NCBI RefSeq assembly: GCF_019222765.1
Contig: NZ_CP078145.1
Location: 7,254,001 to 7,318,000 of the forward strand
Length of the DNA stretch: 64,000 nucleotides
Direction: 5' to 3'
Source: Nocardia iowensis
GTDB taxonomy: Bacteria; Actinomycetota; Actinomycetes; Mycobacteriales; Mycobacteriaceae
A model generated the notes under the pieces. That model had not been told where the DNA came from and did no database searches. It was given only the letters and a program-made list of their open reading frames with translations. The number at the start of each line of letters is the position of its first letter. Position 1 is the first letter of the stretch. Of the stretch, positions 17,925-44,852 are shown one piece after another. The position numbers and the translations under genes were made by a program.

Positions 17925-17963
17925 ACGGAGCGCCGACCTCGCTAGCACGGGTCGGCGCTCCGT
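17925..17963 (+). promoter_or_regulatory. 14-bp hairpin with CTAGCAC loop (copy 1)
   Basis: Arms ACGGAGCGCCGACC (17925-17938) and exact complement (17950-17963), loop TCGCTAGCACG. Near-identical to the hairpin at 18507-18545 apart from compensated base changes at the stem base. It may terminate the upstream gene and/or act as the leader element of the next. Confidence 0.75.
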
Positions 17964-18002
17964 TCTGTACGACACGGACGGTCATCCGCGTCACGCGAAA
18001 AT

Positions 18003-18025
18003 GCCTGCGGCAGTTCGCCGCAGGC
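18003..18025 (+). promoter_or_regulatory. leader hairpin upstream of paralogue 3
   Basis: Arms GCCTGCGGC (18003-18011) and GCCGCAGGC (18017-18025), loop AGTTC, 27 bases before ATG 18053. Same stem core as before the other two paralogues, with a different loop. Confidence 0.65.
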
Positions 18026-18052
18026 GCTTGTAGAGAAGAAATGGAGTATGAA

Positions 18053-18487
18053 ATGAGTGAACAACGCACCGGGTGCCGGGAAAGCATCGAGCTGAGCTGC
18101 GCCCGTTGTGGGCAGGTCGTGTCCTGCGATGGCCACGACCACACCTCGATCATCACCGAGTTGATCGCTAACAACACCTTCGGCTTCGGTGATCTGGTCT
18201 CGGCACTGATGCTGTCGAGCTGGGAGCTCAAGATCGAACCACGCGTCATCGACGGAAATCCCCATGTCTTCTTAACAGGCACTCCGATCGATCAACACGG
18301 GCACCGACGCTTCAACAAACACGAGGTGATCGGGATCTGGAGACGCCGACCCACGGGATGGACAAACCGCAAGAGCGCCACCGGCTACCGGCCGACCGGC
18401 AGCGGGCAGTTCGAAGCAGCTCCCACCAGCCAACTCGCCCAGTATGTGATCGACAACCCAGCGAGCTGGGTACGCGTAGCACGCTGA
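18053..18487 (+). CDS. phage protein of unknown function, paralogue 3 (Zn-ribbon)
   Basis: A 144-residue protein. An N-terminal CARC/C-x-H-x-H cluster (ELSCARCGQVVSCDGHDH, about residues 14-31) looks like a zinc ribbon. The core LVSALMLSSWELKIEPRVID, GNPHVFLTGTPIDQHGH, VIGIWRR and SQLAQYVIDNPASW aligns with 17521 and 15491. GGAG lies six bases before ATG 18053; ATG 18041 is a possible alternative start. It is flanked by nearly identical CTAGCAC-loop hairpins, suggesting that gene and hairpin were duplicated as one cassette. Confidence 0.65.
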   Translation: MSEQRTGCRESIELSCARCGQVVSCDGHDHTSIITELIANNTFGFGDLVSALMLSSWELKIEPRVIDGNPHVFLTGTPIDQHGHRRFNKHEVIGIWRRRPTGWTNRKSATGYRPTGSGQFEAAPTSQLAQYVIDNPASWVRVAR

Positions 18488-18506
18488 ACTGCGTGATCGT
18501 GTGACA

Positions 18507-18545
18507 CGAGAGCGCCGACCTCGCTAGCACGGGTCGGCGCTCTCG
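18507..18545 (+). promoter_or_regulatory. 14-bp hairpin with CTAGCAC loop (copy 2)
   Basis: Arms CGAGAGCGCCGACC (18507-18520) and exact complement (18532-18545), loop TCGCTAGCACG identical to copy 1. It lies between converging genes (stops at 18487 and 18552) and so could be a bidirectional terminator. Confidence 0.75.
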
Positions 18546-18551
18546 CTGTCT

Positions 18552-19310
18552 CTACATCTTGCTGGGAAATCCGCTCGCACCAATGAGCAGCGTGAATCCC
18601 CACGAGGTCAACCACTCAGTGCGCCCCGCTGGCACTGCGGCCGCTTCGGCCCGCAGCGCCGTGACCATGGTCTGCTCGAACCCCGATCGCGGATGTAACA
18701 ACAGCAGCTCACGTACCCAGGCGGGGTCGAATTCCGACAGCCGGATACCGAACGTATCCAGCAGTGTCCCAGCGGCGACGAATCCCGCGGGGTCTGACAA
18801 ATCGGCGCTCACTCCGAAGCTCAGGTGTCCAGCGATGCCCGCCGCGAGATCTTGCGTCCGCTCGACAGTCTCACCGGCCTCCAAGGCGATCTCAATAGCG
18901 CGTCGAGCGCTGGTGACAGCGAAACAGCATCCTGCACTGGGGTGTTCGAGCGTGATGCCGTGCAGCAGACATGACACGTAGGCCAATTCGTCGTCGTAGT
19001 CCGCGCCGTCCACCGACGCGAGTACGCGGGCAAACCAGTAGCTGCGATAGGCGTGTTCGAGCATCGGCGCTGAGAGCACCGCCCGTGCCTCGTGTTCGGC
19101 CCGTCGGGCGAGCGCGGTGTCAGGTAGTCGGGCGTCGGCGAGTTCGAGTTGGGCTGGCCCGTGGTGGCCAGTGCGTGCCCGGACCACGTCGATGACTAGA
19201 TCCGGCAGCTTGCCGAGCATCACCCACATCAGCCGAACGCGTTGCGCGGTAGTCAGTTTCCCGCAGGTGTTCTGCGCCCACGCCCAGTCGAGCCCCGCTG
19301 GAGCAGCCAT
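18552..19310 (-). CDS. HD-domain protein (cyanamide hydratase-like, degenerate)
   Basis: A 252-residue helical protein. The middle reads HAYRSYWFARVLASVDG, ELAYVSCLLHGITLEH and CFAVTSARRAIEIALEAGE, the layout of HD-domain proteins related to cyanamide hydratase, but the metal-binding HD is HG here, so catalysis is doubtful. It is the only minus-strand gene within the plus-strand block. ATG 19310 has AGGAGG five bases upstream; ATG 19370 is an alternative. Substrate unknown. Confidence 0.7.
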   Translation of the reverse strand: MAAPAGLDWAWAQNTCGKLTTAQRVRLMWVMLGKLPDLVIDVVRARTGHHGPAQLELADARLPDTALARRAEHEARAVLSAPMLEHAYRSYWFARVLASVDGADYDDELAYVSCLLHGITLEHPSAGCCFAVTSARRAIEIALEAGETVERTQDLAAGIAGHLSFGVSADLSDPAGFVAAGTLLDTFGIRLSEFDPAWVRELLLLHPRSGFEQTMVTALRAEAAAVPAGRTEWLTSWGFTLLIGASGFPSKM

Positions 19311-19427
19311 CCACGCCTCCTGAAGGTAGTGAGGGTTGCCCCCGCGCACGACGTCGGGCGACGGATTCATCGGAGTCTCGAGCTCCAGCCAGCCCGTGCC
19401 ATCCGTGTTCGGGTGGCGTTTTCGATT

Positions 19428-19502
19428 CCTGCTGCACCGCAGCAGGTTCCACACACCTACGGGTGTGTGGGCCGGGTCCCGGCCAGCTAGCACCTGGCCG
19501 GG
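19428..19502 (+). promoter_or_regulatory. three consecutive hairpins, last with CTAGCAC loop (copy 3)
   Basis: Three perfect stems in 75 bases: CCTGCTGC/GCAGCAGG (19428-19446), CCACACACC/GGTGTGTGG closed by a TACG (UNCG-type) tetraloop (19449-19470), and CCCGGCCAG/CTGGCCGGG (19478-19502) whose whole loop is CTAGCAC. They precede the plus-strand gene at 19545 and would form a structured leader RNA. Confidence 0.75.
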
Positions 19503-19525
19503 CCTCGGTTTCTGGTTCACCAACC

Positions 19526-19536
19526 ATCTACGGGAG
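19526..19536 (+). promoter_or_regulatory. ATCTACGGGAG start-associated motif
   Basis: ATCTACGGGAG eight bases before ATG 19545, directly after the CTAGCAC hairpin. The same 11-mer occurs on the minus strand at 38851-38861, 43820-43830 and 43877-43887. GGGAG would serve as the ribosome binding site; the conserved ATCTAC part is not explained by that. Confidence 0.7.
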
Positions 19537-19544
19537 ACACAACA

Positions 19545-19979
19545 ATGAGTGACCCCTGCATCGTGGGCAGGCTCGGCGGCGAGAAAGCCACCGGCGTCTA
19601 CATCCACATCGATGGCGCCCCGCAAGCGATGCTTCCCCGCCTCGGGCAACTGCTAGCCCGTGACGGAACCGAAAAGGTCCTGACCACGCTCGCGCGCCGA
19701 CACTACGGATGGGCCTACCTGTGGCCCGAGTTCGATGAAGGCGACGCCGAAACCAACCTCGATCTGCCGCTCTACAAGGGCAAGGTGATTCCCGGATACG
19801 GGTTCTGCTACACCATCGGGCCGCTTGTGCACGGGTTGACACTCAACAATGCCCGCGTCCATCCGCTGATCGGATGGGCGTATTTCATCGATGCTGCGGG
19901 CGGGGATATCCACTGGTGGGACACCCGGCCCGGAGCGCCCGCTACCGGACATGTCGCCACTGTGTGGGGGCGGGCATGA
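19545..19979 (+). CDS. phage protein of unknown function
   Basis: A 144-residue protein (MSDPCIVGRLGGEKATGVYIHIDGAP...). It has a hydrophobic/aromatic C-terminal half (GWAYLWPEFDEGD, GYGFCYTIGPLVHG, GWAYFIDAAGGDIHWWD). No family recognised; the number of Trp/Tyr/Gly residues suggests a small beta-rich domain. It has the most elaborate leader in the window (three hairpins plus ATCTACGGGAG) and overlaps the next gene by four bases (ATGA), so the two are coupled. Confidence 0.6.
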   Translation: MSDPCIVGRLGGEKATGVYIHIDGAPQAMLPRLGQLLARDGTEKVLTTLARRHYGWAYLWPEFDEGDAETNLDLPLYKGKVIPGYGFCYTIGPLVHGLTLNNARVHPLIGWAYFIDAAGGDIHWWDTRPGAPATGHVATVWGRA

Positions 19980-20656: not shown

Positions 20657-20671
20657 CTGAATGTAGGAACG

Positions 20672-23527: not shown

Positions 23528-24166
23528 GTGAGGATGGGGCCGCCGACCACACACCGAGACTTCTTCAACCGAGAGGGTTTTGCGCCGAGCACCGATGGTG
23601 AGGTTACTGCTCGCTGCACCGAAAGCGCCGAACTCGCCACGCTATTGGAGCAGTGCGGCCAGTCGAACCCGCAGGCCTTCGCCGAGTTCTATGACCGGAC
23701 GTGCGCGCGTGTGTTCGGACTGGTGCTGCGTGTGGTGTGTGACCGCGGATACGCCGAGGACATCACCCAAGAGGTGTACCTGCAAGTGTGGCGGACCGCG
23801 GCGGGTTTCGACCCGGGGAAAGGGTCGGCGTTGACGTGGTTGATGATGCTGGCGCACCGGCGTGCGGTCGACCGGGTCCGCACCGAACGCGCGTGTCTTC
23901 AACGCGAATTCGACTACGGCATCAGGGTCCTCGGACGTGAATTCGATGAAGTCGCCGAGCAGGTCGAGCACCAGCTCGAACAACAGGCCGTGCTCGCCGG
24001 TCTGGCCAGCTTGACCCTGGTGCAGCGCCAAGCCATCACCCTGGCCTACTACGACGGGCGCACCTATGCCGAGGTAGCGCACTACCTCGGCATAGGGTTA
24101 CCGACCGTCAAGTCCCGCATCCGGCAAGGACTGATCCGATTGAAAACACGACTCGCGGACGCGTGA
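23528..24166 (+). CDS. ECF sigma factor (SigK-like)
   Basis: A 212-residue sigma-70 family protein. Region 2 is AFAEFYDRTCARVFGLVLRV to DRGYAEDITQEVYLQVWRTA, FDPGKGSALTWLMMLAHRRAVDRVR (about residues 50-120); region 4 is TLVQRQAITLAYYDGRTYAE then VAHYLGIGLPTVKSRIRQGL (about 155-205). Regions 1.1 and 3 are absent, as in ECF factors, and it resembles mycobacterial SigK. No anti-sigma gene of the RskA type follows, which is unusual. GTG 23528 is used, with GAGGA upstream; ATG 23534 is an alternative. It probably directs transcription of nearby secreted-protein genes, but no promoter motif was proven. Confidence 0.8.
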   Translation: MRMGPPTTHRDFFNREGFAPSTDGEVTARCTESAELATLLEQCGQSNPQAFAEFYDRTCARVFGLVLRVVCDRGYAEDITQEVYLQVWRTAAGFDPGKGSALTWLMMLAHRRAVDRVRTERACLQREFDYGIRVLGREFDEVAEQVEHQLEQQAVLAGLASLTLVQRQAITLAYYDGRTYAEVAHYLGIGLPTVKSRIRQGLIRLKTRLADA

Positions 24167-24301
24167 GCGGCTCTGCTGGCGCGCCGATGAAGCAGGCCGA
24201 TCCATCCGCGATGCAGGGCAATCCAACCACGTCCCGATTCCGAATCCCCTTGTGGTACATCATTTCGCTGAGCAACCCAGGGTGTACTAGGTCGGATACG
24301 A

Positions 24302-24349
24302 GCGTCGCCGAAGCACGGGGACACCCGCTCCTGCGTGCTTCGGCGACGC
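24302..24349. terminator. 16-bp perfect hairpin after the sigma factor gene
   Basis: Arms GCGTCGCCGAAGCACG (24302-24317) and exact complement (24334-24349). Located 135 bases after the sigma factor stop. The remaining stretch to 24696 is low-complexity and Pro/Ala-coding in some frames, but no gene is supported there. Confidence 0.65.
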
Positions 24350-24696
24350 GCCCGGCTACCGACTCCCCCCGCCGCCACCTTCGCCACCGGCGCCAACTTC
24401 GCCGACCCCTCCTTCGCCTACACCTACGCCCCCCAGACCGCCGCTGCTGCCGCCTACGGCGGGCTCGGTGGCGCGGAGGCAAGGTTCGCGGACGCCAGCC
24501 GAGCGGTTCGGGCTACGCCTGCTGGGCTAAGACCGGTTAGTTCAGGACTGGTCACCGGTACAGCCCCCTGAGCTGTGATCACACCGCCCCCTGAAGGTTG
24601 TCTCGATCCTTCTCGGTCGCCGTGCCGAATACCTCTTAGTCGGGTGCCTAGCGCGCGGGACGCCAGGGACACAATCCAGTATCGAAGGAGAGTTTT

Positions 24697-25815
24697 GTGG
24701 CGAGGAATCCAGCAGGTCGTTTGCTGATGGTAGGTTGCATCGCGGCGTTGGGGGCCACGCTGGTTACAGCGGGGTCCCATCCAGCATCTGCGATCCCCAC
24801 CGATTCATCGTCATCGCCTTGTCCCACTGATGCCCCTGCCGATGGCGGCACACCGCTGACCGAAGCTGGAATCAGCGATTTGATCAACAAGGCGAACGAA
24901 GGTGGGGACAACGTCGAAACGTCCCTGCAAACTCCGGAAGCCGGGTGCACGATCCACCTCACCGCAGCGTGGCCGATCCTTACCGGAAAGCTGAGCTTGA
25001 CCGCCACATCCGGTCCACTGACCATTGACGCCAGCGAGTCCCCCGGTTCAGGATCCGGAGCTAAAGGCATTTTCGTTTTGGAAAAAGGTGGCGATCTCCA
25101 TCTTTCCAATTTCATCTTGACCAAGAGCGTAGAATCGGCAATATTCAGTTTAGAGGGTTCAGTGACCGTAAGCAACTCCATAATCAAAGAAAACGGTGAA
25201 CACGGCATCCAGGTCAGTCGCACGAAACTCACCGTTGACGATACCGCGATAATCAATAATCAGAAAAAGGGCGTCAGGGGAAACGATCGCGACGTCATTA
25301 CACTGAAAGGCAGCACTGTATCAGGGAATGCTGGCGGGATACAAATGGGAGATGGTGTGGGCGCTCTTACTGTCACGGACAGTGAAATCAGCAACAACAC
25401 GAATCCAAAGGGAGACGGTGGCGGAGTGATGCTCAAAGCCAGCGATATGAAGATGACGAACTCGACGATAAGTAAGAACACCGCAGGTTCACCGACCGCG
25501 GAGGCGGCCTACGGCGGAGGGATCAGTGCGTTCCAAGCCGATATTGCGATGGAGAACAGCACGGTAAGTGATAACGTCGTTCGCAGTATCAAGAGGAGCA
25601 AGGGTGGCGGCATCAGTATGGGCAGTGGGAAGTTGACATTGACCGACAGCAAGGTCACCGGCAACGACGCGAACGCGAGCCAAGGGATCGAAAGTACCTT
25701 CGGTGGCGGCATCGACAACCGTGAGGCAGCCCTCACCATCCAAGGCGACAGTGAGATCACCGACAATTCGCCCAACAACTGCGAGAAAGAAGTACCTGGG
25801 TGCAGCAATAAGTAA
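24697..25815 (+). CDS. secreted right-handed beta-helix protein
   Basis: A 372-residue exported protein. A signal peptide (MARNPAGRLLMVGCIAALGA..., cut near ASA at about residue 32) is followed by repeats of the polymorphic right-handed parallel beta-helix type: SNSIIKENGEHGIQV, GSTVSGNAGGIQMG, DSEISNNTNPKGDGGGVML, NSTISKNTAG, NSTVSDNVV, DSKVTGNDA. Each repeat places N/G-rich turns between short strands. Such folds are common in carbohydrate-active or adhesive proteins. AAGGAG lies six bases before GTG 24697. The gene is more AT-rich than its surroundings. No catalytic residues can be assigned. Confidence 0.75.
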   Translation: MARNPAGRLLMVGCIAALGATLVTAGSHPASAIPTDSSSSPCPTDAPADGGTPLTEAGISDLINKANEGGDNVETSLQTPEAGCTIHLTAAWPILTGKLSLTATSGPLTIDASESPGSGSGAKGIFVLEKGGDLHLSNFILTKSVESAIFSLEGSVTVSNSIIKENGEHGIQVSRTKLTVDDTAIINNQKKGVRGNDRDVITLKGSTVSGNAGGIQMGDGVGALTVTDSEISNNTNPKGDGGGVMLKASDMKMTNSTISKNTAGSPTAEAAYGGGISAFQADIAMENSTVSDNVVRSIKRSKGGGISMGSGKLTLTDSKVTGNDANASQGIESTFGGGIDNREAALTIQGDSEITDNSPNNCEKEVPGCSNK

Positions 25816-26935
25816 GTCAGTTGTTGGTCGACAGTTTTCTGATCGCCGACTGCGAGCCGTTCATGGTCTATTTCCTAATCATCGACGGTCTGGTCGATCA
25901 CACGATCGACAGCACATCCACGGTGAGTGGTCGCGAATACACGCTGGGAATCTGCTGTGCCCGGCCAGCCCCCTGCGCTGGGTACGACAGTCTGGACCCA
26001 CCGGGCCGCTGCTGCGCGAGTACTACACCGGCCGCCGGTCGCTCCGTCGATCGGGAGCAGGCCCGCGAGGCCGACCGCCGACCCACATCCGGTCATGCAC
26101 CCGCGTTGTGTTCCAGGGGGTTCAAGGACATGTATGCGTGAACAAGGTCGCGGCCGGTGACTCGACAGCGTACAGCCGGATGAAGGCGGTGGGCACCCTG
26201 CTGCGCGGTCATGTGCACTGCTATCAGATGGCGATCGGCCCTCTCACCGAGCAAACCAACAGCAAACAGCCAACCCCGTGGGGTCCGAGCAAGATGCCCG
26301 GCGGGTCGTCCGGCGGGTCCGCCGCCGCAGTGGCCGCGCGCTTCACCACGGCCTCGTTCGGCCCGAGACCGCCGGGCTGAGGACGACACCGTCCAGTCGT
26401 CCGGCCACAAGTCGGTTCGGTTATACCGATGCAACGACACATACTCGGCAATACCGGACGTTCTGCGGTGCAGTCGATCTCGCCCGAACAGAACGCCCTC
26501 GCAGCGGCAGATGCGGACGTTCGCCAGGACACAGAATCGGCGCTGCCGAGAAGGTGACCTACCCGGCACCTCCTCGGCAGCTCGTATCCGAACCGGCACA
26601 CCGTGATCGGACGTCACCGCGTAACACGACACAATTCGGTGCCGACCGCCCTATGGATGGGCCAGCCGGCATCCACGACAAGCCGGAAGCGGTCAGATGC
26701 AAATGTTCGGTCCGCCGTTCGAACGCGGCGCGACATCCAGCCCTCCGAGTTGGCTTCTATCCGCCGTGCGGGGCAGTGACCAAACCAACCGCCGACCTGC
26801 CACGGTGGCTGTTCGGATCTGTCCGGTGTGACCGATCCGTGGCGGCTGTGGTGACGAATATGTCGGTGGGCCGGTTGTGTTGCTGGTGTGATCGGCCGGA
26901 GTCCTCGTCCTTGGTCCTTGTCGTGGGAGGTCGGT
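25816..26935. other. 1.1-kb gap with gene remnants
   Basis: No intact gene with RBS and family support. Contains an amidase fragment (see 26235-26380) and otherwise only overlapping short frames without ribosome binding sites. Reads like decayed chromosomal DNA. Confidence 0.5.
26235..26380 (+). pseudogene. amidase-signature fragment
   Basis: The plus frame ending at 26380 encodes TPWGPSKMPGGSSGGSAAAV, followed by AAR. GGSSGGSAAAV is the core of the amidase signature that holds the catalytic cis-Ser and nucleophile Ser, and the preceding PW-x(5)-PGG spacing also fits. Nothing upstream or downstream forms the rest of an amidase, so this is a truncated remnant. Confidence 0.5.
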
Positions 26936-27490
26936 ATGGAAGGTCGTTTGCGAGTGGTGGGGTCGCTGGTGGCTGTGGTGATGGTGTGTGCTGGGGCTGG
27001 GGCGGCGGCTCCCGCGTATGCCCAGCCCAAGTCGCCGTGGAGCGGCAAATGTACTGGTGAGAACGCCGAGGTGGCGGCGGAGAAGCCGTTTATCATTCAA
27101 GCCTGCCAACGCGCCTTCAGCGCCGCCGCTCGCGCTGGCGCCGCCGCCGAAGCCGCCCCCGACGCCGCCGCCGAAGCCGCCGACGGCGCCGCCGATGCCG
27201 CCACCCGCGCTGACGCCGCCTACGCCGATGCCGCCGCCGACGCCGACACCATCGCCACCTACGACGCCGCCCGCGCCGTTCGCTTGGCCGTCCTGATCGA
27301 CGCGGACGTCGACGAGGGCGTCCACGACGCCGCTGCCGCTGCTGAGGCCGCTGCTGAGGCCGCTGGGAAGAAGCCTACGGATAGGGCGCTGGCCAATAAG
27401 GCGGCCGAGGCTGAGGAGAAGGCTGTGAAAACGTCGAAGAAGGCTTTCGGGGGTCCGGAGCCGGTGACGATTCCGAAAATTACCTCGTAG
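26936..27490 (+). CDS. secreted Ala/Asp-repeat protein
   Basis: A 184-residue protein with a signal peptide (MEGRLRVVGSLVAVVMVCAG, cleavage near AYA at about residue 29) and a mature region dominated by Ala-Ala-Asp/Glu repeats (AAEAADGAADAATRADAAYA), likely a long extended helix. A small Cys-containing head (SGKCTGENAE, IIQACQRAF) precedes the repeats. GGGAGG lies before ATG 26936. The GCC-GAC-GCC repeat makes the DNA locally repetitive and prone to length change. Function unknown. Confidence 0.6.
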   Translation: MEGRLRVVGSLVAVVMVCAGAGAAAPAYAQPKSPWSGKCTGENAEVAAEKPFIIQACQRAFSAAARAGAAAEAAPDAAAEAADGAADAATRADAAYADAAADADTIATYDAARAVRLAVLIDADVDEGVHDAAAAAEAAAEAAGKKPTDRALANKAAEAEEKAVKTSKKAFGGPEPVTIPKITS

Positions 27491-27767
27491 GAGTGTTGGT
27501 GGGCCGTCTCGGGGTGCGGGTTGTTTTGTCGGCGACACACCCGTATCTCGGGCCCCGGGCGGGGGCGTCGATCCGGTCAGCCTGGGCGCGACAGCGCGCT
27601 GTGCTGTCAGCCGCTGACCATGGGGCGGGCCGCCGACCGATATGGACGACCGCGTTTGAGGCGAGGTGCACCGACGGATGACCGCCGAACAGCAGGCCCT
27701 CGTTGGACGGTGGTCGACGCGGTAAACACCGCGCGGCCGAGGTGTTGACCAGCACCAGGGACACGAA

Positions 27768-27795
27768 CGCCCCGACCCTATGACAGGCCGGGGCG
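27768..27795 (-). terminator. terminator of the two-gene minus operon
   Basis: Arms CGCCCCG (27768-27774) and CGGGGCG (27789-27795), 21 bases after the stop of the 27817 gene on the minus strand. Short stem, no long U-run. The stretch 27491-27767 to its left holds no supported gene. Confidence 0.5.
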
Positions 27796-27816
27796 CACTT
27801 GGCATTTCAGTTCGGT

Positions 27817-28008
27817 TCAATGGTCGCCATAGCGTCGCGGACCGGACGCCGCGGCGGCTAGTTCGGTTGCCGCCTTTTGCAGCGACACCGCCGCCGGATG
27901 CTCGGCACCGAGCAGAGCGGCTGCTTCCTCGTAGATCGGTTGGATCTTGTCCCGCAGTTCTCTGGACTTGCTCACGTCGATAGGGTCCGGCACCAGAGTT
28001 CCTTTCAT
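27817..28008 (-). CDS. small helical protein coupled to secreted protein gene
   Basis: A 63-residue helical protein (MKGTLVPDPIDVSKSRELRD... EEAAALLGAEHPAAVSLQKAA). Its ATG overlaps the TGA of the secreted protein gene (ATGA at 28008-28005), so the two should be made together. The four-helix-prone, Ala-rich sequence suggests a partner or chaperone role. No family recognised. Confidence 0.5.
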   Translation of the reverse strand: MKGTLVPDPIDVSKSRELRDKIQPIYEEAAALLGAEHPAAVSLQKAATELAAAASGPRRYGDH

Positions 28009-28478: not shown

Positions 28479-28672
28479 GATTCCCCCCAAAGGAATCTCG
28501 GCGTGTTCAGACACGTTGGTGTCCGTCTGCTCGGATAACGCCAGGTGGCTGCGCTGCTCCCTGGCGCGACTTGAATGTGTTCCCGCCGGTCGGGGAAGGC
28601 CGTCCGAGATACGTTGGTATGGCGGCTAATTGGCAGGCGGTGCCCGCGCGCCGTTGCCTGTGCGCGTCCGTG

Positions 28673-29245: not shown

Positions 29246-29249
29246 GTGT

Positions 29250-29726: not shown

Positions 29727-29732
29727 GCCGGA

Positions 29733-30092: not shown

Positions 30093-30327
30093 CGCCTGCG
30101 CCTCCTGGTCGCTCGATTGGCTTGCACCCGACGCCGGTGCCTTCGCTATCAATGGGCGGCTCAATGCTGCTGATGAACTGATCGCCCGGCGTCGGATGCC
30201 TAGATCAAGGACACGCCGAGTGGTTGCTCCGGCGTAAGGCGTGCACGCCGGGCGGGTGTGTGCAGAGGGGGTGTGCACGGTAGTGAAGTCATGGCGTAGC
30301 AGGTATTTCGCGTGCCACACTGCTGAG

Positions 30328-34643: not shown

Positions 34644-34764
34644 AGAGCGTTCGTTTCGGAGGGCAGCGAATGCAGGGCGGGGGCGTACCGCGAAGCGATC
34701 GTCATTGATCCTTCGCGGTGGACCCGGCCGACCGAAGAGCAGTCCCCAACAGCGATTGGCTTGC

Positions 34765-38085: not shown

Positions 38086-38552
38086 AGTCGCCCCTTGTCG
38101 ATGGCCTCGATGATCTCGGTGAGGTCGTCGAGGGTGTTGGTTCCCAAGAAAAGCTGACCTGCCTGAAGTTCGGTGAGCCCGAGACGTCGTTTGGCGTACT
38201 CGCGTGCAGGCAGCTGCTCACCGGTGGTCAGATCCCGCGCGGTGGTCAGATCGGCCGCTAACTGCACCGGAGGCTGAGTCGTGTCATCGGTGAGACCGGC
38301 GGTGCGCAAGGTCATCGAGTCATAGGCCCATGCCACATCGGGGTCGAGTTGAACGACCCATCCGGCGACACACAGTGCGGTCCGGCAGACCGGTGTGCCG
38401 GTGTCGGCGTAGATGACGGCGTCGATGTCGACGGCTCGGTAGACGTCCTGGTTCCATTCGAGGCCAGGGTGGCGGGCCTGGTCGGGCAGGGCCACGATGG
38501 TGTCGATGACGCGGCGCGCGAAACCTAGATCTGGGACCGCGCGACGGATCAT
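38082..38552 (-). CDS. phage protein of a family common in actinophage early regions
   Basis: A 156-residue protein with the landmarks CRTALCVAGWVVQLDPD and RRLGLTELQAGQLFLGTNT. The C-x-T-x-x-C-x-x-GW and LGL-x-x-x-QA-x-x-LF pattern recurs in many actinophage proteins of unknown function. Coupled by four-base overlaps to its neighbours. Confidence 0.6.
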   Translation of the reverse strand: MIRRAVPDLGFARRVIDTIVALPDQARHPGLEWNQDVYRAVDIDAVIYADTGTPVCRTALCVAGWVVQLDPDVAWAYDSMTLRTAGLTDDTTQPPVQLAADLTTARDLTTGEQLPAREYAKRRLGLTELQAGQLFLGTNTLDDLTEIIEAIDKGRL

Positions 38553-38845
38553 GACCGAACCTCTTCTCCGGCAGCAGCTTCGACGCCTACGAGCCGTCCG
38601 GCCGCCAGGAGCTCAATAGGCTGGCCTGATAGCCAGGTGGCGTGGCAGCACGGGCAATAGCCCGTGGGGGTGGATGCGCCGCCGACGATGGTCAGGCCCG
38701 GTTCCAGGGTCATCGGCGCGCAGACCGGGCAGTAGTGCTCGACAGGTTGTCCTGCGAGACGCGCCCTGTTCGGTCGCGCTGGCGTATGCCGGGTTTCAGC
38801 ACTGTCGTGCTTGTCCGGGCAGTGCAATTCCATGACGATTTTCAT
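38549..38845 (-). CDS. small double zinc-ribbon protein
   Basis: A 98-residue protein with two Cys pairs, HYCPVCAPM and GYCPCCHATW, plus an N-terminal LHCPDKHDS, arranged as a zinc ribbon. It is the first gene of the overlapping run that ends at 36654. Its start lies six bases after a copy of ATCTACGGGAG and behind a CTAGCAC-loop hairpin, so expression of the whole run is likely controlled by that element. Confidence 0.6.
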   Translation of the reverse strand: MKIVMELHCPDKHDSAETRHTPARPNRARLAGQPVEHYCPVCAPMTLEPGLTIVGGASTPTGYCPCCHATWLSGQPIELLAAGRLVGVEAAAGEEVRS

Positions 38846-38850
38846 CGCTT

Positions 38851-38913
38851 CTCCCGTAGATGCGGTATTCAATTCCCAGGGGATAAGTGGTGCTAGCCAC
38901 ATGAAATCCCCTG
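38851..38913 (-). promoter_or_regulatory. CTAGCAC-loop hairpin (copy 4) plus ATCTACGGGAG motif
   Basis: On the minus strand: outer arms CAGGGGAT/ATCCCCTG (38877-38884, 38906-38913), inner GTGG/CCAC stem with loop CTAGCA, then ATCTACGGGAG at 38861-38851, followed after five bases by ATG 38845. The flanking bases 38914-38989 are AT-rich and hold no gene. Confidence 0.75.
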
Positions 38914-38989
38914 CACTCCATACTATTTCATCGAAAATTCAGACTCAATACCTCAATTCGATTGATTTACAACAATTTTCACCGATCGA

Positions 38990-40336
38990 TCACGCGAATA
39001 TGCCCCGGCTTCGGCATACCCGGAAATAGGCGTCGGCCGGGGTCCAGGGCAGCCCGAAGGTGGAGTGGTAGAGCTCGTGCGGGAACAGTCGTTCGTCGCG
39101 TGCGTAACGCCATTGGCGCAGGTTCACCACGTTCGGATGTTCGTCATCCTCGTGCCCGCGGGCCGGGACGATGCCGTAGCCGAACTCGGGCCAGCGCAGC
39201 AGCAGTGAGGACCCGATCGGGCGCACCGAGCGGGAACGCCCGTCTGCCGCGTGCGGGATGTGGCCTTCCAGCAGCAGCGCGAACCGGTATTTCACCCGCA
39301 GCCGGTCCAGGATTCGCACCAGTTCTCGTGCACCGTCGGCGGCTTCGGTGTCCAGGGCGTTGAGCCGGTACAGCGGGCCTGCGACGACGAGCGCGGGCCG
39401 GTGCGCGGCGATCGCGGCTTCGATGCGGCGCAGCTCGCGCGGATCTTCCAGCCGCACACCGTCCGGGCGCGCCTCGATGCGCAGTTCGTCGTTCCAGTCC
39501 GGGCGCGGGTGATTCTGTTGGGCGCAGACCACGTCGACGCGATCGACGAGATCGCGGTAACGGCGGCGCAGCTGACCGGGCAGGTTCTCCGCGTCGATGA
39601 CCAGCACCCGATGAGAGCTCGTGCGTGGCGCTCCGGCGCCGATGATCGGAGCGGCGAGGAACGGGTGCAAGCCCGCGGTGACAGCGCACGCGATCTGAGC
39701 CAGCAGCGTCGACTTCCCGAGACCTTCGATACCGGTGAGGATCATCCGGTCGCCGTACTCGAACAACTGCGGGATCAGCCAGTCGTAGGAGTCGCTTCCG
39801 GCCAGCAGTTCGGCGACCGAGGGCGGCAGCGCCACCTCGCCGGGTGAGACAGGGTCGGTGAAATCCATGTCAAGAGCCTCGCGCGCGCGGGCGACGACCT
39901 GACCAGTTAACGCCAAGTCGCCGTTGCGGGCCAAGACGTGCAGTTTCTGGATCAGGCGGGTGGCTTCACCGACTGCGGTGCGCGCGTGCCACAGCGTGAT
40001 GATGCGGTCAGCGAAGTACGGCACCGATCCAGGCACGCCTTTGCCGAGGAGTTCGAGGGTGATTATGCGCAGGCGGCCGGTGTCGGCTCCGAGTTCGCCT
40101 CGGCTGGAGGCCTTTTCCAAGACGACGACGGGGTCGGCGGGTTGTCCGGCACGCACCAGCTCGACCAGCGTGCTGTGCAGCAGCTGATGGGCAGGCCGGT
40201 AGAACGCCTCGGTCGGGACGTCTGCGACCATCGCCGCGACCTCGGCGTTGTCCTCGGTGTAGAGCGCCGCGCCGAGGATCTGTTGTTCGGCTTCGATGTC
40301 GCACATCTCCGGCTGCTCCCACTCCGGGCCGTTCAC
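38990..40336 (-). CDS. DnaB-like replicative helicase/AAA ATPase
   Basis: A 448-residue protein. The N-terminal part (about 10-130) is the DnaB N-terminal helical domain (EAEQQILGAALYTEDNAEVA..., FYRPAHQLLHSTLVELVRAG). The C-terminal part is a RecA-like ATPase with Walker A GIEGLGKST (202-210), Walker B RVLVIDAE (243-250) and RPALVVAGPLYRL further on. It resembles the RepA/DnaB-like ATPases of actinophages. GTG 40336 overlaps the preceding stop (GTGA); ATG 40306 is an alternative. It probably unwinds the phage origin together with the upstream protein. Confidence 0.8.
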   Translation of the reverse strand: MNGPEWEQPEMCDIEAEQQILGAALYTEDNAEVAAMVADVPTEAFYRPAHQLLHSTLVELVRAGQPADPVVVLEKASSRGELGADTGRLRIITLELLGKGVPGSVPYFADRIITLWHARTAVGEATRLIQKLHVLARNGDLALTGQVVARAREALDMDFTDPVSPGEVALPPSVAELLAGSDSYDWLIPQLFEYGDRMILTGIEGLGKSTLLAQIACAVTAGLHPFLAAPIIGAGAPRTSSHRVLVIDAENLPGQLRRRYRDLVDRVDVVCAQQNHPRPDWNDELRIEARPDGVRLEDPRELRRIEAAIAAHRPALVVAGPLYRLNALDTEAADGARELVRILDRLRVKYRFALLLEGHIPHAADGRSRSVRPIGSSLLLRWPEFGYGIVPARGHEDDEHPNVVNLRQWRYARDERLFPHELYHSTFGLPWTPADAYFRVCRSRGIFA

Positions 40337-41850
40337 GCTGGGACCTTCGCCAGGCGCTCACGCAATTTGGACGCCGCCCACATCCCGGTCTCGCGCATGG
40401 CGCGCAGCTCGGTGCGCAGCCGGTCTTGGTGGATTCCCTCACCGAGCAGGGTTTCCAGTTCTGCGCGCAGGGCTTCGCGGGCCGGGCCTGGCGGGGTGCC
40501 ACCCTGGCGGCCGATGGCGTCGATGTGGTCGCGGGCGAGCCGGTAGGCCATCGCCCGGACCTCGCCAGGGCTCACCGGGTCCGGTATGGGCAGCGGGGTG
40601 TGCGCGGCCGCCATGCGGCGGGCGTAGCCGTGGGGGCCGTGCGGGTCGAAAAGCCTGTCGATGTCGGGGTTTTCGGCCACGTTGGTGGTGGCAAGGTATT
40701 CGGCTCTGGCGTCGATCACCGCCTCGGCGCGGTCGAGTTCGGCTTGGGCTTGGGCGTGGCGGATCGCGCCGGCATCCGGGTCGGCCAGCACTGCGATGGC
40801 ATCGGGGGCCAGGCGGGCCAGGACGCGGCGGCGCATCGCCGAGGTTGCCGGGATTTCGGGTGCGGCGGCGTTGAGCCGATCAGCGACGTCGTCGCCGCCG
40901 TGGCGTGGACGCGGCGCGGGTCGTGGTGGTGGGAGCGGTTTTTCCTCCCACGCGTCACTGTCGTAAGGGAGGGGACTTACTGGAGTAGAGGTATTTATGA
41001 CTTGTGAATTGTGAGACGCGCCCGCGTTGGTAGAAGGAGCTCGGGCAGGCACGCTAGTGGTTTCGCTAGCCGCTTCTCGCCGGTTCGCGGCTTTGGCGAG
41101 CCCACCTTTTCTACCGGCTGACCTGGCCTGTTCGGTCCTTGTGGTCGGTTCGAGGTAGTGGTTTTGGTGGCGTTGATAGTCGTGCATGGTGAAGAAACCG
41201 TGACCGCATGGCGCGTTCGCTGTGCATGCACCGTGCCGACACGGTGTCGCCGTGGTGCATGCGTGGTGCTTCCATGATCCGGCCGTGGTGAGTGCCTCAC
41301 GGATGCGTGGTGGCGCGATCTTGCGCGCTTGGCTGGCGGCGATGACACCGTTGGTGCGGTTGCGGGCGCAATAGATCCACAGCTCGATCAGCTTCAGCTT
41401 CGTGACCGGCGTCAGCGGACCGGTCTTGCGGTTCTCCAGGAAGTCGACGCTGAGCTTGAGGTAGCCGCGTGTGTCCTTGCGCCTGGCCGAAGCCGGGCCG
41501 TGGAAGGTCTGGTGGCGCTCGTAGTCGTGCATCGTGAAGAAGTCGCGCCCGCACGGCGTCGACGGTGTGCACGCACCGTGCTGGCACGGCGTCGCCACGG
41601 TGCAGTCGTGGTGATGCCAGCAGCGCGCGAGAGTGAAGATCTCGCGGATGCGGCCCGGCACCAGCCGTCGTGCCTGGGTAGCGGTAACCGTGCCGCCGGT
41701 GCGGTTGCGGGCACAGTAGATCCACAGCTCGATCAGCTTGAGTTTGGTCACCGGCGACATCGGGCCGGTCTTGGGGTTCTCGAGGAAGTCCAGGGCGAGT
41801 TTGATGTATCCGCGGGTGTCTCTGGTGGCCTCGCGGGCTTCTACGGGCAT
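40333..41850 (-). CDS. replication initiation-like protein with tandem duplicated domain
   Basis: A 505-residue protein. Residues 11-119 and 126-234 are two copies of one domain (both DTRGY-I/L-KL, DFLEN, PVTKLKLIELWIYCARNRT, HGACT, FFTMHDY-E/Q-RHQ), identical at about two thirds of positions by eye. Each copy has a winged-helix-like part and a Cys/His-rich part (HHDCTVATPCQHGACT). The C-terminal half is Pro-rich then helical. Its place before the DnaB-like gene suggests origin recognition or helicase loading. GGAG lies seven bases before ATG 41850. Confidence 0.7.
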   Translation of the reverse strand: MPVEAREATRDTRGYIKLALDFLENPKTGPMSPVTKLKLIELWIYCARNRTGGTVTATQARRLVPGRIREIFTLARCWHHHDCTVATPCQHGACTPSTPCGRDFFTMHDYERHQTFHGPASARRKDTRGYLKLSVDFLENRKTGPLTPVTKLKLIELWIYCARNRTNGVIAASQARKIAPPRIREALTTAGSWKHHACTTATPCRHGACTANAPCGHGFFTMHDYQRHQNHYLEPTTRTEQARSAGRKGGLAKAANRREAASETTSVPARAPSTNAGASHNSQVINTSTPVSPLPYDSDAWEEKPLPPPRPAPRPRHGGDDVADRLNAAAPEIPATSAMRRRVLARLAPDAIAVLADPDAGAIRHAQAQAELDRAEAVIDARAEYLATTNVAENPDIDRLFDPHGPHGYARRMAAAHTPLPIPDPVSPGEVRAMAYRLARDHIDAIGRQGGTPPGPAREALRAELETLLGEGIHQDRLRTELRAMRETGMWAASKLRERLAKVPA

Positions 41851-41948
41851 GCGGGTACTCCGAAGTCGTTGCGCGCCAGCATGGCTCGATGCCGCGAGTG
41901 CGCGACATCGAGCTGCTAGGTGCGGCGTGGGGTCGACATGGCGGTTGG

Positions 41949-42146
41949 TCAGGTCAGTGGTTCGACCTCACGGGACTCGTGTTGGCCGTCATCCCAGCGG
42001 CGCTCGGTCACTGCCGCGCGCCCGCCACCGCTTTCCACGATGTAGCGGCACTCCCACAGCACGCGGGTGAGATGACGGAGCTCGTCGTTGATTTCGTCGA
42101 TGACCAGCCAGTCTTGGCCATCGCCGAACGGGTCGGCCGTGCTCAC
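41949..42146 (-). CDS. small phage protein of unknown function
   Basis: A 65-residue protein (MSTADPFGDGQDWLVIDEIN..., VLWECRYIVESGGGRAAVTE). GTG start in a GTGA overlap with the preceding HTH gene. No family recognised; highly charged. The 98-base gap after it contains no recognisable element other than the RBS of the next gene. Confidence 0.5.
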   Translation of the reverse strand: MSTADPFGDGQDWLVIDEINDELRHLTRVLWECRYIVESGGGRAAVTERRWDDGQHESREVEPLT

Positions 42147-42544
42147 GACTCGACACCGACCGGTGTGTAAACCGGCGCACGTCTGGGTCGCTGCGCCCGT
42201 GACTGTGACGAGCGGATGCGGCCGCGTTTGAGCGCGATCTGTACCAGCATCGACGCGATTCCGTCGTCGAGGGTGTGCAGCTGTTCGAGGGTGAACGGTT
42301 CACCGGCGTCGATGAGCCCGTCGAGTCGATCGGCGATCCGTTGCTCGGCCTGGGACAAGATCAGGCAGTCGTAGCGCAGGATGCGGGTACGCAGCGTGGC
42401 CACGGTCAGGCCGAGGCGCTGCGCGATTGCATCGTGGGTCATGTTCGCCTCGCGCAGGAACCGGTACTCGGCCACGAACACCCGCTTGGCGTCCTCCTTC
42501 GACCTCGTGACCGAGTCGAGGGAAGGACGCCCGCGGCTGCTCAC
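42143..42544 (-). CDS. HTH DNA-binding protein
   Basis: A 133-residue protein with a central helix-turn-helix (about 34-60: ANMTHDAIAQRLGLTVATLR) and a basic C-terminus. GTG start overlapping the preceding stop (GTGA). WhiB-independent small HTH proteins of this sort are common in actinophage early operons. Possibly a regulator of early genes or a replication accessory. Confidence 0.65.
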   Translation of the reverse strand: MSSRGRPSLDSVTRSKEDAKRVFVAEYRFLREANMTHDAIAQRLGLTVATLRTRILRYDCLILSQAEQRIADRLDGLIDAGEPFTLEQLHTLDDGIASMLVQIALKRGRIRSSQSRAQRPRRAPVYTPVGVES

Positions 42545-42777
42545 GCCGACCTCGGTTCAGCCAGCCCGGCCAGGTAGGCCCAGTAGTCGCATTCGACCCA
42601 CCGCAGCGGCCCGGAATCCCCGTTGAGTCGAAACCCTTTGTCGGCCAGCAGGTGTGGTTTCGATTGGGATCGCCATTGCAACACCAACTGCTCGGTGACA
42701 CGCAGCCGTTCGGCGATCTCGGTGCGGTTGATCAGTCCGTGCGTGCAGCCTGGTGCTTCGCATTTCCTTATTGCCAT
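42541..42777 (-). CDS. excisionase/MerR-like HTH protein
   Basis: A 78-residue protein with HGLINRTEIAERLRVTEQLV and LQWRSQSKPHLLAD, a winged HTH of the MerR/excisionase class. Its length fits a recombination directionality factor, but its position away from int leaves this open. It lies six bases after the stop of the AAA gene. Confidence 0.6.
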   Translation of the reverse strand: MAIRKCEAPGCTHGLINRTEIAERLRVTEQLVLQWRSQSKPHLLADKGFRLNGDSGPLRWVECDYWAYLAGLAEPRSA

Positions 42778-42783
42778 CTGTTC

Positions 42784-43740
42784 TCACCCCCTTCCCTCTG
42801 CCTGCTTGTCGGCCGCTTCGGCGGCGGCGCGTTGTGCGGCCTGCTGCCTTTCCACGGCCTCCATGGCCTCTTTGATGGCCACGATCAGTTCGCGCAGCGT
42901 GGTAGGTGTTCCCTCGTGGTCGACGGTGGGTGCGCCGAGCATCCGGTAGGAGTCGATCTCGAGGTAGATCTCGCGCAACTGCGTCATCTGTTCGACATCG
43001 AGAATCCGCTGCCGGAACTCCGCGACCGTCGGTGCCGCGTGTCCGGCGTCGAGCCAGTCTGCGATCTGGGTAGCGAGTTCGGCTCCGGGTTGGGCGATGA
43101 CCTCACCTGCCAGAAATGGCAGTCGAGTCTTGGAGATGTGCAGGTTGTTGCGCAGATCGAGGTCGCCGACGATGTCGAACTCGTACTCGAGTCCGTCACG
43201 TTGCACCGGTTTGGTGCCGACCTTGCGTGGGACCGCTCGGCCTTTGGTGTCTTCTTCGACGAGGTATTCGGTCTTGGTCCGCAAGGTGACGATCAGATGC
43301 CCTGGGTAGGTGAGCATCGCTTCTATCATCTTGCGTTCGTCGCCGGAGACTTCCTTCCAGCCCGAGAAGCTGTTGGACCCTGATTTGCGGCGGTCGGCCT
43401 GTTCGATCATCCCGTCCGGGCCGAACCAATAGTGCGACCACGAGTCGATGATGAACGGGTTGAACCCGCGCCCTGCAGCGGCCCCGAGGATCTCGACCAA
43501 CCCCAGCGGTGAGAAGCGGTCGGGGTGAAGGGTTTCCCAGTGCCAGCCGTTGAGTCCCTCGTACATGCTGGCGCGGCCGTGTTCGGTGTCGACCATCCCG
43601 ATCACCGACTTCTCGCGCTGGGCCCACGCCCAGCCCATCGCCAATGCGGTGTAGGTCTTGCCGGAACCAGAAGGGCCAGCAAGCGCCAGCCGTGCCGGAG
43701 ACTTGCGTCGCACGGCGGGTTTGAACTCGATCGCCATCAT
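42784..43740 (-). CDS. AAA/RecA-like ATPase (Sak4-like)
   Basis: A 318-residue ATPase with Walker A GPSGSGKT (22-29), MVDTEHGRAS after the second strand, and Walker B FNPFIIDSWSH (about 94-103). This AAA_24/Sak4-like family is found in phages with recombination or replication genes. The C-terminal quarter is helical and charged (RQQAAQRAAAEAADKQAEG). The start overlaps the stop of a 25-codon leader ORF (ATGA), and a CTAGCAC hairpin with two ATCTACGGGAG copies lies upstream, so translation is likely controlled. Confidence 0.75.
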   Translation of the reverse strand: MMAIEFKPAVRRKSPARLALAGPSGSGKTYTALAMGWAWAQREKSVIGMVDTEHGRASMYEGLNGWHWETLHPDRFSPLGLVEILGAAAGRGFNPFIIDSWSHYWFGPDGMIEQADRRKSGSNSFSGWKEVSGDERKMIEAMLTYPGHLIVTLRTKTEYLVEEDTKGRAVPRKVGTKPVQRDGLEYEFDIVGDLDLRNNLHISKTRLPFLAGEVIAQPGAELATQIADWLDAGHAAPTVAEFRQRILDVEQMTQLREIYLEIDSYRMLGAPTVDHEGTPTTLRELIVAIKEAMEAVERQQAAQRAAAEAADKQAEGRG

Positions 43741-43814
43741 GACCGCCTGTTCAACGGCAACGCGATGTGCCCGCCTGACGGCTTGGCGGCCGACGGGTTA
43801 AACTGGATTCGCAT
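43737..43814 (-). CDS. 25-residue leader ORF coupled to the AAA ATPase
   Basis: MRIQFNPSAAKPSGGHIALP then LNRRS and TGA, which overlaps the ATG of the ATPase gene. ATCTACGGGAG lies five bases before this ATG. Either a leader peptide controlling the ATPase or a small functional protein. The integrase has the same arrangement. Confidence 0.5.
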   Translation of the reverse strand: MRIQFNPSAAKPSGGHIALPLNRRS

Positions 43815-43819
43815 AACTA

Positions 43820-43887
43820 CTCCCGTAGATGTGCACCGACCCGGTGGAGTGCTAGCCCACCGGGTCAACTATTTCTCTCCCGTAGAT
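43820..43887 (-). promoter_or_regulatory. CTAGCAC-loop hairpin (copy 5) flanked by two ATCTACGGGAG motifs
   Basis: On the minus strand: ATCTACGGGAG (43887-43877), hairpin with 10-bp arms GACCCGGTGG (43866-43857) and complement (43847-43838) whose 9-base loop contains CTAGCAC, then ATCTACGGGAG again (43830-43820) five bases before ATG 43814. The first copy is not next to a start codon, so the motif is more than a ribosome binding site. Confidence 0.75.
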
Positions 43888-43901
43888 CTGTTGAGCGTCG
43901 C

Positions 43902-44138
43902 TCAGTCCGTACCTCCGTCCTTCTCGTCGGGGAACAGCTCGTGAATCGGGATATCCAGCGCCGCAGCGATTTTCGCTGCCAGCTCCGGGCTACAGGACCT
44001 TCGGGCTCCTGAACGCAGCAGTCCGATGATGCTCTTGCCGCACCCTGCTCGCTTGGCCAGTTGCCGCACCGACAAGCCTTCGGCGGTCATGGCATCTCGC
44101 AAGGCGGTCCGGGTGCTCAACTGCGTGCCGTTCGCCAT
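43902..44138 (-). CDS. XRE-family HTH regulator (Cro-like)
   Basis: A 78-residue protein that is almost entirely an XRE helix-turn-helix: ALRDAMTAEGLSVRQLAKRA, then GCGKSIIGLLRSGARRSCSP and a C-terminal helix AAKIAAALDIPIHELFPDE. GGGAGG precedes ATG 44138. It is the first gene of the leftward early operon and is divergent from the repressor at 44337, the usual arrangement of a lysis-lysogeny switch; so it is a Cro-like or early regulator. Confidence 0.75.
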   Translation of the reverse strand: MANGTQLSTRTALRDAMTAEGLSVRQLAKRAGCGKSIIGLLRSGARRSCSPELAAKIAAALDIPIHELFPDEKDGGTD

Positions 44139-44336
44139 CAAAGTTCCCTCCCTCTGTGCTGCCTCCCCCTGCTACAGACAGTAACAACAGAAGACATACG
44201 TGTCTACTGAACTTGAACACGGTATAGATAGTCGTAGCAGCTAGAAGTGCTATTGACCGACCTCTGTCTGCACTGAATCAACGAAATCGCTATCGTATGG
44301 ACAGTGAGTGTGGACATATGCCTTACCCTTGTGGAC
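44139..44336. promoter_or_regulatory. switch region between divergent regulators
   Basis: An AT-richer 198-base gap. It holds AGACA-TACG-TGTCT (palindrome near 44192-44205), TTGACC (near 44251, a possible -35 for the repressor) and two GTGGACAT repeats just before and at the repressor start (near 44312 and 44331). Likely contains both early promoters and their operators. Confidence 0.5.
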
Positions 44337-44735
44337 ATGGCACGAACCCGCCCGGTACCCGAACCGTGGGCCTCGGCAATGTCCGCGGTCGGTATCAACA
44401 GCCGCAACCAGCTCGCCGACCGAGCGGGCGTGCACGGCACCACCATCGCTCGCCTGATCGACAACCCCGAGCATCCGGCGTCGCTGGAGACCGTCCGCGC
44501 CGTTGCCGCCACGCTCAAGCTCGACATCCGCGACGTGGCGCACTGGTCGGGTATCGCGCTCGAACTCGACGAGCCCTACAACCCGCCGCCGGAGGCCGCG
44601 ATCCTTGACCGCGATCAGCGCAAACTCGTATCGGACCTCATCCGTGCGCTGGCTGCCAACAATCGACATCCCCGGCCCCCGTTGAAGATTCAGACGACCG
44701 GCGTGGTCGTTCTGTCCGGTGAAGCGTCGAAATAG
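44337..44735 (+). CDS. immunity repressor-like HTH protein
   Basis: A 132-residue protein with an HTH near the N-terminus (about 18-60: INSRNQLADRAGVHGTTIAR, LETVRAVAATLKLDIRDVAH) and a short C-terminal region. It is the only regulator transcribed towards the integrase and lies opposite the Cro-like gene, as phage repressors do. GTG/ATG context GTGGAC-ATG 44337 has no clear RBS, so a leaderless transcript starting at or near the ATG is possible. Most likely it keeps the early operon off in the lysogen. Confidence 0.65.
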   Translation: MARTRPVPEPWASAMSAVGINSRNQLADRAGVHGTTIARLIDNPEHPASLETVRAVAATLKLDIRDVAHWSGIALELDEPYNPPPEAAILDRDQRKLVSDLIRALAANNRHPRPPLKIQTTGVVVLSGEASK

Positions 44736-44792
44736 AAGCTGTAGAACATATTTCGATACTCACTCCGAGCGGCGGCACGTAAATCTATTCTG

Positions 44793-44852
44793 CCCCCGTA
44801 GAATTGGAGTTGTTCAACACCGGCTAGCACCGGTCATTGCACAACACGGGAG
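44793..44852 (+). promoter_or_regulatory. CTAGCAC-loop hairpin (copy 6) upstream of integrase leader
   Basis: ACCGG-CTAGCA-CCGGT hairpin (44819-44834), then CACGGGAG (44845-44852) five bases before ATG 44858. A reversed CCCCCGTAGAA lies at 44793-44803. Same order as the other copies, hairpin then GGGAG motif then start, although the ATCTAC part is imperfect here. Confidence 0.65.

Follow-up and report, generated by a model that had tools for sequence, protein, structure and literature searches.

Hairpins with a shared loop stand before key genes of Nocardia prophages and suggest control through loop recognition

What is the function of six hairpins that share the loop CTAGCAC in a prophage of Nocardia iowensis? 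They were first noticed in a stretch of 64,000 nucleotides (contig NZ_CP078145.1, positions 7,254,001 to 7,318,000; hereafter the window, in whose numbering all coordinates are given), which belongs to a host chromosome of 8.95 Mb assembled as one contig. The window holds a temperate prophage, with terminase and portal genes on its left side and a repressor, a Cro-like gene, an AAA-ATPase, replication genes and an integrase on its right side, where the integrase adjoins a tRNA-Met. As described below, hairpins with a shared loop stand before key genes in a group of temperate phages of Nocardia, and in two of these phages the loop is different at every such site found. This pattern suggests that some factor present in the infected cell recognizes the loop and thereby controls the genes in question. 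The element is a real phage element, with good sequence evidence for loop recognition.

All six hairpins were found where the original prediction had placed them, inside this one prophage, and they correspond to five non-homologous sites (Table 1): the integrase leader (site A), the AAA-ATPase gene (site B), two small genes without a family match (sites C and D), and the 3' end of another gene (site E, present twice). The element thus marks the integrase as well as early genes, as had been proposed. The six stems had been described as unrelated and perfectly paired. Five of them are independent, since the two copies of site E are near-identical and lie behind tandem paralogous genes; moreover, the E copies contain one unpaired T and the stem at site C a large internal loop. 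The predicted start-proximal motif, ATCTACGGGAG, was confirmed at four hairpins, being exact at B, C and D and a variant at A. Its claimed distance of 5-8 bases from an ATG was also correct; however, at A and B this ATG opens a short leader open reading frame (ORF) and not the main gene. A fourth exact ATCTACGGGAG, located upstream of hairpin B, had been overlooked. Both tandem paralogues at site E (17494-17904 and 18041-18487, + strand) match one single gene in the relatives.

The number of CTAGCAC words in the window (7, versus a mean of 3.46 expected) was reached or exceeded in 7 of 100 shuffles, so the word count alone is unremarkable, and what stands out is the pairing around the word. 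Indeed, at least 4 apical pairs in the register of a six- or seven-base loop surrounded all six prophage copies, as compared with 2 of 125 words in control loci. Words of the form GCTAGCAC, a pattern which excludes sites whose 25 bases begin or end with an A, lay in an in-register hairpin in 6 of 6 cases in the prophage and in 3 of 31 in the remaining host genome, and a general loop preference of the host was rejected on this last count. Among the 83 strong hairpins (at least 8 pairs) between 7000 and 46300, 4 had a CTAGCAC loop, and all four are listed sites. As for the start motif, 16 matches to the 11-mer with up to 2 mismatches were found in the window versus 13.3 expected, which is not an over-representation; it is the four exact copies that stand out.

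To define the distribution of the element, the exact combination of loop and motif was searched in 150 Nocardia genomes, which yielded 17 matches in 5 genomes (2-4 per genome). Protein searches with genes C and D, in which the hairpin was ignored, each picked out 7 of 148 genomes, identical for the two proteins, and added three genomes (G016, G024 and G136). In all three, hairpins were present before genes C and D and also at A and B, and in two of them at E. The A, B and E elements of these three genomes were found by scanning for a set of listed loop words and for the motif, so that sites with an unlisted loop could be missed. Altogether, 37 elements were identified in eight genomes (9 at A and 7 each at B, C, D and E, the E count including both window copies). 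The genes C and D were absent from the fetched stretches of G142, as were its C, D and E elements; in G091, site B was missing, the ATPase gene running to the contig end, and two A copies were present on different contigs, which means that this genome may hold two prophages. The place of site E in G016 was occupied, as judged by eye, by a different hairpin followed by TTT. The window integrase shared 25-30% identity with its counterparts in 5 of the 7 other genomes, yet the same kind of leader was kept. In these Nocardia loci, 22 of the 23 listed CTAGCAC sites had at least 4 apical pairs in register and the remaining one (L114:13926) had a longer stem with one mismatch, while six further CTAGCAC words had 0-3 pairs. 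Moreover, every TCTACGGGAG word (21 of 21, in 17 loci) was found beside such a hairpin.

The prediction that the element recurs in related phages was thus borne out within Nocardia. For phages of Gordonia and Rhodococcus, the searches made gave it no support: places combining loop and motif with at least 4 pairs in register accounted for 13 of 14 in Nocardia loci and 1 of 80 elsewhere, the latter resembling chance. When any loop of 6-14 bases was allowed, 18 of the 80 non-Nocardia places had at least 5 pairs (the best, L042, had 8), and the hairpin test therefore depends on the register. A chance origin of the element was rejected on the counts from control loci, host genome and non-Nocardia places. 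A pattern search of viral contigs returned 30 stretches, two of which (L006 and L021) carried the element, in both cases of the D type and within 555-base surroundings that are also present in Nocardia loci (L068 and L072); the equivalent search of genome contigs returned 63 stretches, including 11 from Nocardia, all 11 at listed elements. The pattern with a changed loop (see below) gave 39 stretches in viral contigs, none with a stem of at least 5 pairs. At the family level, 3 of 301 genomes matched, the two besides that of the window without a hairpin, and gene C was detected in 1 of the 301 by a search that scored fewer candidates in each genome than the one in 148 genomes. When sites B and D were compared with named phages by Blast, the only matches had expectation values (E) near 1 or worse.

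The original prediction had emphasized a constant loop with exchanged stems, and the apical stems indeed covary between sites. In cross-site counts, which took in 21 of the 37 sites, 92.7% of cells were paired with 17 double changes in a set of 11 sites, and 100% with 9 double changes in a set of 10; none of 500 shuffles was as high on either measure in either set. The loop has six bases (hexaloop CUAGCA, closed by G-C) or seven (heptaloop CUAGCAC), with larger or smaller loops in some folds of D and E; the base before it was G in 19 of 20 copies, and the loop itself hardly varied. Single-sequence folds of site A contained the apical hairpin in 9 of 9 copies. A covariance model built on 20 copies from five genomes, leaving out G136, G016 and G024, recovered 5 of 5 G136 elements in 499,105 bases (19.8-26.6 bits; E from 0.0056 to 0.2) and 0 of 9 sites with a changed loop. 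Two weak additional matches in G136 (L150:18161-18193 and L151:8446-8478; E of 0.31 and 0.85) were located away from the listed sites. Among 148 Nocardia genomes, 15 had a match at E ≤ 0.5, six of them in the phage group, with G016 and G024 missed. The other nine had one or two matches each (E of 0.07-0.48), and five of these nine each carried a single CTAGCA hairpin with 4-10 pairs in register (L205, L207, L210, L213 and L214), which is probably due to chance.

The comparison between phages showed that loop and start motif each change in concert. In six genomes all 28 sites had the loop CTAGCAC, versus 0 of 9 in G016 and G024. The C and D sites, whose search had used the genes rather than the loop, gave the same contrast when taken alone (10 of 10 versus 0 of 4). 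Instead, G016 and G024 exhibited CTTAGCC(C) loops (A of G016, the B and D sites, and E of G024), CTTGCCC loops (the C sites of both) and a CTAGCCC loop (A of G024). In G136, it was the motif that differed: ATCCACAGGAG at B and C, ATCCGCAGGAG at A and ATCTACAGGAG at D, with TCCACAGGAG as the copy upstream of B. The motif ended in CAGGAG at 4 of 4 G136 sites versus CGGGAG at 26 of 26 in the other genomes. Loop and motif therefore vary separately, and where one of them differs in a phage, it does so at every site found there. Such concerted change at non-homologous sites, together with stem arms that differ between loop and motif, argues for recognition in trans; copying of whole cassettes or gene conversion is hard to reconcile with a site-specific 3' stem arm lying between the two words. 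The simplest cause would be one trans-acting reader per word, or a single reader with two contacts. What the sequences themselves show is the pairing and its covariation, a loop that stays constant in each phage (almost constant in the changed lineage), the joint change of the loop and also of the motif, and the position of the element.

The explanation we favor, with a probability of about one half, is that of an RNA stem-loop in phage leaders which would be read through its loop and, together with a standard translation-start motif, would provide control of translation or stability by a loop-binding factor. The hairpins at A-D would lie in the mRNA leader directly upstream of a standardized extended Shine-Dalgarno motif, either ATCTACGGGAG or the variant of the lineage, which would serve the gene itself at C and D, and at A and B a short leader ORF whose stop overlaps the gene start. 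The loop CUAGCA(C), or CUUAGCC(C), CUUGCCC or CUAGCCC in one lineage, would be read by a trans-acting factor, most likely phage-encoded. Its binding would jointly set the translation or stability of the transcripts of the integrase, the ATPase and the two small genes, after transcription start; at site E, the same hairpin would mark the mRNA 3' end. That the element acts as RNA, that there is such a factor and in which direction it works are inferences from the patterns above. More tentatively, and with rather less than even odds, a phage RNA-binding protein of unknown fold might read the loop at no fewer than five leaders and 3' ends per genome, forming an RNA regulon with an evolving code; as part of this same tentative proposal, the code might consist of the loop word and the start motif, each of which could be switched across the sites of one genome in a lineage. 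The small early proteins in common with G142 (42541-42777, 42143-42544 and 41949-42146) are first candidates for the factor by position alone, and weak helix-turn-helix matches were obtained for the second of these (42143-42544).

Several observations weigh against the stem-loop explanation. Site E is without a start motif and so is not covered by a purely translational role, and no known RNA-binding domain was detected in the 30 proteins scanned with PHROGs and the 10 scanned with Pfam. In the cross-site counts, sites had been sorted into six- and seven-base loops by their own pairing, which favors structure; other measures were weaker, with 20 and 269 of 500 shuffles as high for pair changes on both sides and 73 and 4 of 500 for the number of pair types. 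Covariation within single sites was modest (double-change pairs: 2 of 18 at C, 1 of 8 at A, 1 of 22 at B and 5 of 15 at D), some pairs broke, and the corresponding energy terms were near zero or unfavorable (+0.41, +0.67, +0.06 and -0.12). The RNAalifold consensus of site A retained only outer pairs, between CCC(A)GUAGA and UCUACGGG of the start motif, and no apical hairpin. As for the concerted change, the loops are not identical within the changed lineage. Moreover, G016 and G024 look closely related and are best counted as one lineage, in which the loop change may have been one event per site. In the five genomes found first, A, B and E were reached through a search for either loop or motif, and constancy there is partly a result of this selection.

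Processive antitermination, in which nut- or put-like hairpins are read in nascent RNA, one of them after the Cro-like gene (B) and the others at the heads of later operons, was the first alternative considered. In phage lambda, nutR comes after cro, and site B lies directly after the Cro-like gene; in addition, the hairpins occupy gaps that follow upstream genes, the RNA would begin at A and C, and E is at a 3' end. For nut sites, however, a start motif 5-9 bases from the start codon at A-D is unexpected, E lies behind its gene and not before it, and the scanned proteins contained no N-like match (no search for boxA was made). We consider this role unlikely. None of the four terminator-like sites called by a scan of 38500-45200 for intrinsic terminators, which have a G+C-rich stem with a T run behind it, was an element; for D and E, which lie outside that scan, reading of the sequence revealed no run of 5 T.

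Slightly less probable again, in our judgment, is a passive structure, i.e. hairpins that stabilize 5' or 3' ends next to a strong ribosome-binding site, with no dedicated factor and a loop kept for folding or by a host nuclease. The hairpins are stable, a putative RNA start lies near the foot of hairpin C, and the E place of G016 holds another hairpin and TTT. On the other hand, the loop is used neither by the remaining host genome nor by the other strong hairpins of the prophage, and between phages loop and start motif differ in concert.

The stoperators of cluster A phages are DNA sites bound by the phage repressor. The loop word and the ATCTACGGGAG word could similarly be sites for a phage DNA-binding protein, given that the start motif is asymmetric and oriented and changes in concert in G136, and that the TAGAAT of site A shares bases with an inverted relative of this motif. 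A DNA-binding site would not need stem arms that covary with free sequence, though, and TCTACGGG is absent from the gap between repressor and cro (44142-44303); we judge an operator comparable to the cluster A stoperators (named in PMC3203893) very improbable here. Least credible of all is pairing of the loop with a phage or host RNA, or kissing of loops through the self-complementary CUAG of the common loop, because CUUAGCC and CUUGCCC lack this palindrome, which led us to reject kissing loops, and because the prophage stretches of six genomes held no conserved complement and no conserved antisense partner (away from hairpins, 2 complements in G013 and 1 in G024 only; host RNAs were not searched).

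Table 1. Position of the hairpins, start motifs and associated genes in the window
Feature	Position	Strand	Remark
Site A: CCCGTAGAAT upstream of the hairpin, with -10-like TAGAAT; partly complementary to start motif	44795-44804	+	TAGAAT in 8/8 copies examined
Site A: hairpin ACCGG-CTAGCA-CCGGT, integrase leader	44819-44834	+	Hairpin A in 8/8 genomes
Site A: start (ribosome-binding) motif, variant ACACGGGAG	44844-44852	+
Site A: 12-codon leader ORF MKYAHALIAGVC, stop overlapping integrase ATG (TGATG)	44858-44896	+
Integrase gene, read from the ATG in TGATG	44896-46176	+	phrog_1, E 5.8e-28, for the longer ORF 44719-46176
Site B: second ATCTACGGGAG, upstream of the hairpin	43877-43887	-
Site B: hairpin, between Cro-like and AAA-ATPase genes	43838-43866	-
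Site B: start motif ATCTACGGGAG	43820-43830	-
Site B: 25-codon leader ORF MRIQFNPSAAKPSGGHIALPLNRRS, stop overlapping ATPase start	43737-43814	-
AAA-ATPase gene	42784-43740	-	phrog_1366; Pfam AAA_24
Site C: putative promoter TTGAGT-17-TAGTAT; expected RNA start near hairpin foot	38920-38948	-	Similar at other C sites
Site C: hairpin with internal loop	38877-38913	-
Site C: start motif ATCTACGGGAG	38851-38861	-
Gene C, 98 aa, Cys-rich, without family match	38549-38845	-
Site D: hairpin	19478-19502	+
Site D: start motif ATCTACGGGAG	19526-19536	+
Gene D, 144 aa, without family match	19545-19979	+
Site E: hairpin copy 1, 3' of gene 17494-17904, without start motif	17925-17963	+
Site E: hairpin copy 2, 3' of paralogous gene 18041-18487, without start motif	18507-18545	+

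Across the eight genomes, the leader ORFs comprised 12-19 codons at A and 25-26 codons at B, and their stop overlapped the main start as TGATG in 8 of the 9 copies of site A and in all 7 of site B; the C and D motifs led straight into the gene. The distance from motif to start codon at A-D was 5-9 bases. At least two Trp codons were present at the end of 6 of 7 B leaders, that of the window being the exception. All 7 B sites carried an upstream copy or variant of the motif (TCTACGGGAG in four, TCTACGGGAA in G016, TCTATGGGAG in G024 and TCCACAGGAG in G136).

Promoter-like sequences of the form TTGNNN-17/18-TANNNT were detected by script upstream of 6 of 7 C sites, the seventh locus being cut and read by eye, and TAGAAT was found 17-19 bases before the loop at 8 of 8 A sites. 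If these sequences are used, the RNA would start at or just before the hairpin. A stricter promoter scan of 38500-45200 called none of them. No promoter-like sequence was seen by eye at site B, directly behind the Cro-like gene. At site A (44795-44852, + strand), pairing of CCC(A)GUAGA with the start motif is possible, the window and G136 showing a poorer fit; speculatively, RNA that reads through from the repressor gene might be silenced in this way, and RNA begun at TAGAAT not. Just upstream of site D (19428-19471, + strand), two further hairpins were observed: one is CCTGCTGC-ACC-GCAGCAGG, and the second has a variable stem, which as judged by eye remains paired in four phages, and a loop that is not conserved.

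Elsewhere in the window, a block at 23528-32392 contains a sigma-factor-like gene, a transcriptional regulator and a Nudix gene, and may be a host-like insert or cargo; several of its ORFs had no match in the fetched stretches of related prophages. An inverted repeat with a 17-pair stem (46200-46236) lies between the integrase and the tRNA-Met, near the likely attachment site.

With loop, stem and start motif each varying on their own, the hairpin set amounts to a natural experiment, which bears on whether double-stranded DNA phages of Actinobacteria possess an RNA-based regulon linking lysogeny with early lytic genes. The start-associated sequences (SAS) and extended SAS (ESAS) of actinobacteriophages were described in 2011; in the papers cited below, their role is still called unclear. 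Their repeats do not resemble RNA hairpins.

Among known systems, the SAS and ESAS of cluster K phages are the nearest description (PMC3203893, PMC11373665, PMC12699233). SAS is a short asymmetric motif with a Shine-Dalgarno core, the 13-bp GGGATAGGAGCCC with two deviations allowed, which stands typically 3-7 bp before the start codons of genes for non-structural functions, in most cases after a large gap; upstream of about half of the copies lies an inverted repeat (PMC3203893). These ESAS repeats are 17 bp long with sequence-conserved arms, and according to Pope and colleagues changes in them do not generally support pairing (PMC3203893). The Adephagia ESAS contains a SigA-like promoter (PMC11373665). 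The likeness in layout but not in sequence that had been predicted was confirmed, a start-proximal motif being shared and the defining sequence features absent. The motif of the Nocardia phages is ATCTACGGGAG or ATCCACAGGAG, with a GGAG core in common with SAS; its spacing agrees, several D sites and some A and B sites at 8-9 bases exceeding the typical range. In contrast to ESAS, the arms are unrelated between sites, paired and free in sequence, whereas the loop is constant. With regard to an ESAS-like promoter, site C has the two-part sequence described above in most copies, site A only TAGAAT and site B none by eye, and the stricter scan found none. The Nocardia element has, in addition, a class without a start motif (E) and leader ORFs. 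We found no account of this hairpin element in the literature searched, and an Rfam scan of the window at the gathering threshold returned the tRNA only.

Lambda nut sites combine boxA with a boxB hairpin and work with an N-type protein. Like lambda-type boxB, the element is a small phage RNA hairpin whose constant loop has variants particular to a phage, and one copy of it lies directly behind a Cro-like gene; it differs in its loop, in its placement at start codons and in the lack of an N-like protein among those scanned. The element may play a boxB-like role, for which site B would be suitable. Actinobacterial ANTAR RNAs contain two hexaloop hairpins near start sites, with A1 and G4 in their loops. 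Hexaloops near starts are thus common to both, but the loop described here begins with C and each site has one such hairpin. Finally, the operators of MS2 coat protein and T4/RB69 gp43 are hairpins near a ribosome-binding site that are bound by a phage protein and serve one or a few genes. The Nocardia element shares this position near the ribosome-binding site, whereas here it forms a set of sites within one genome.

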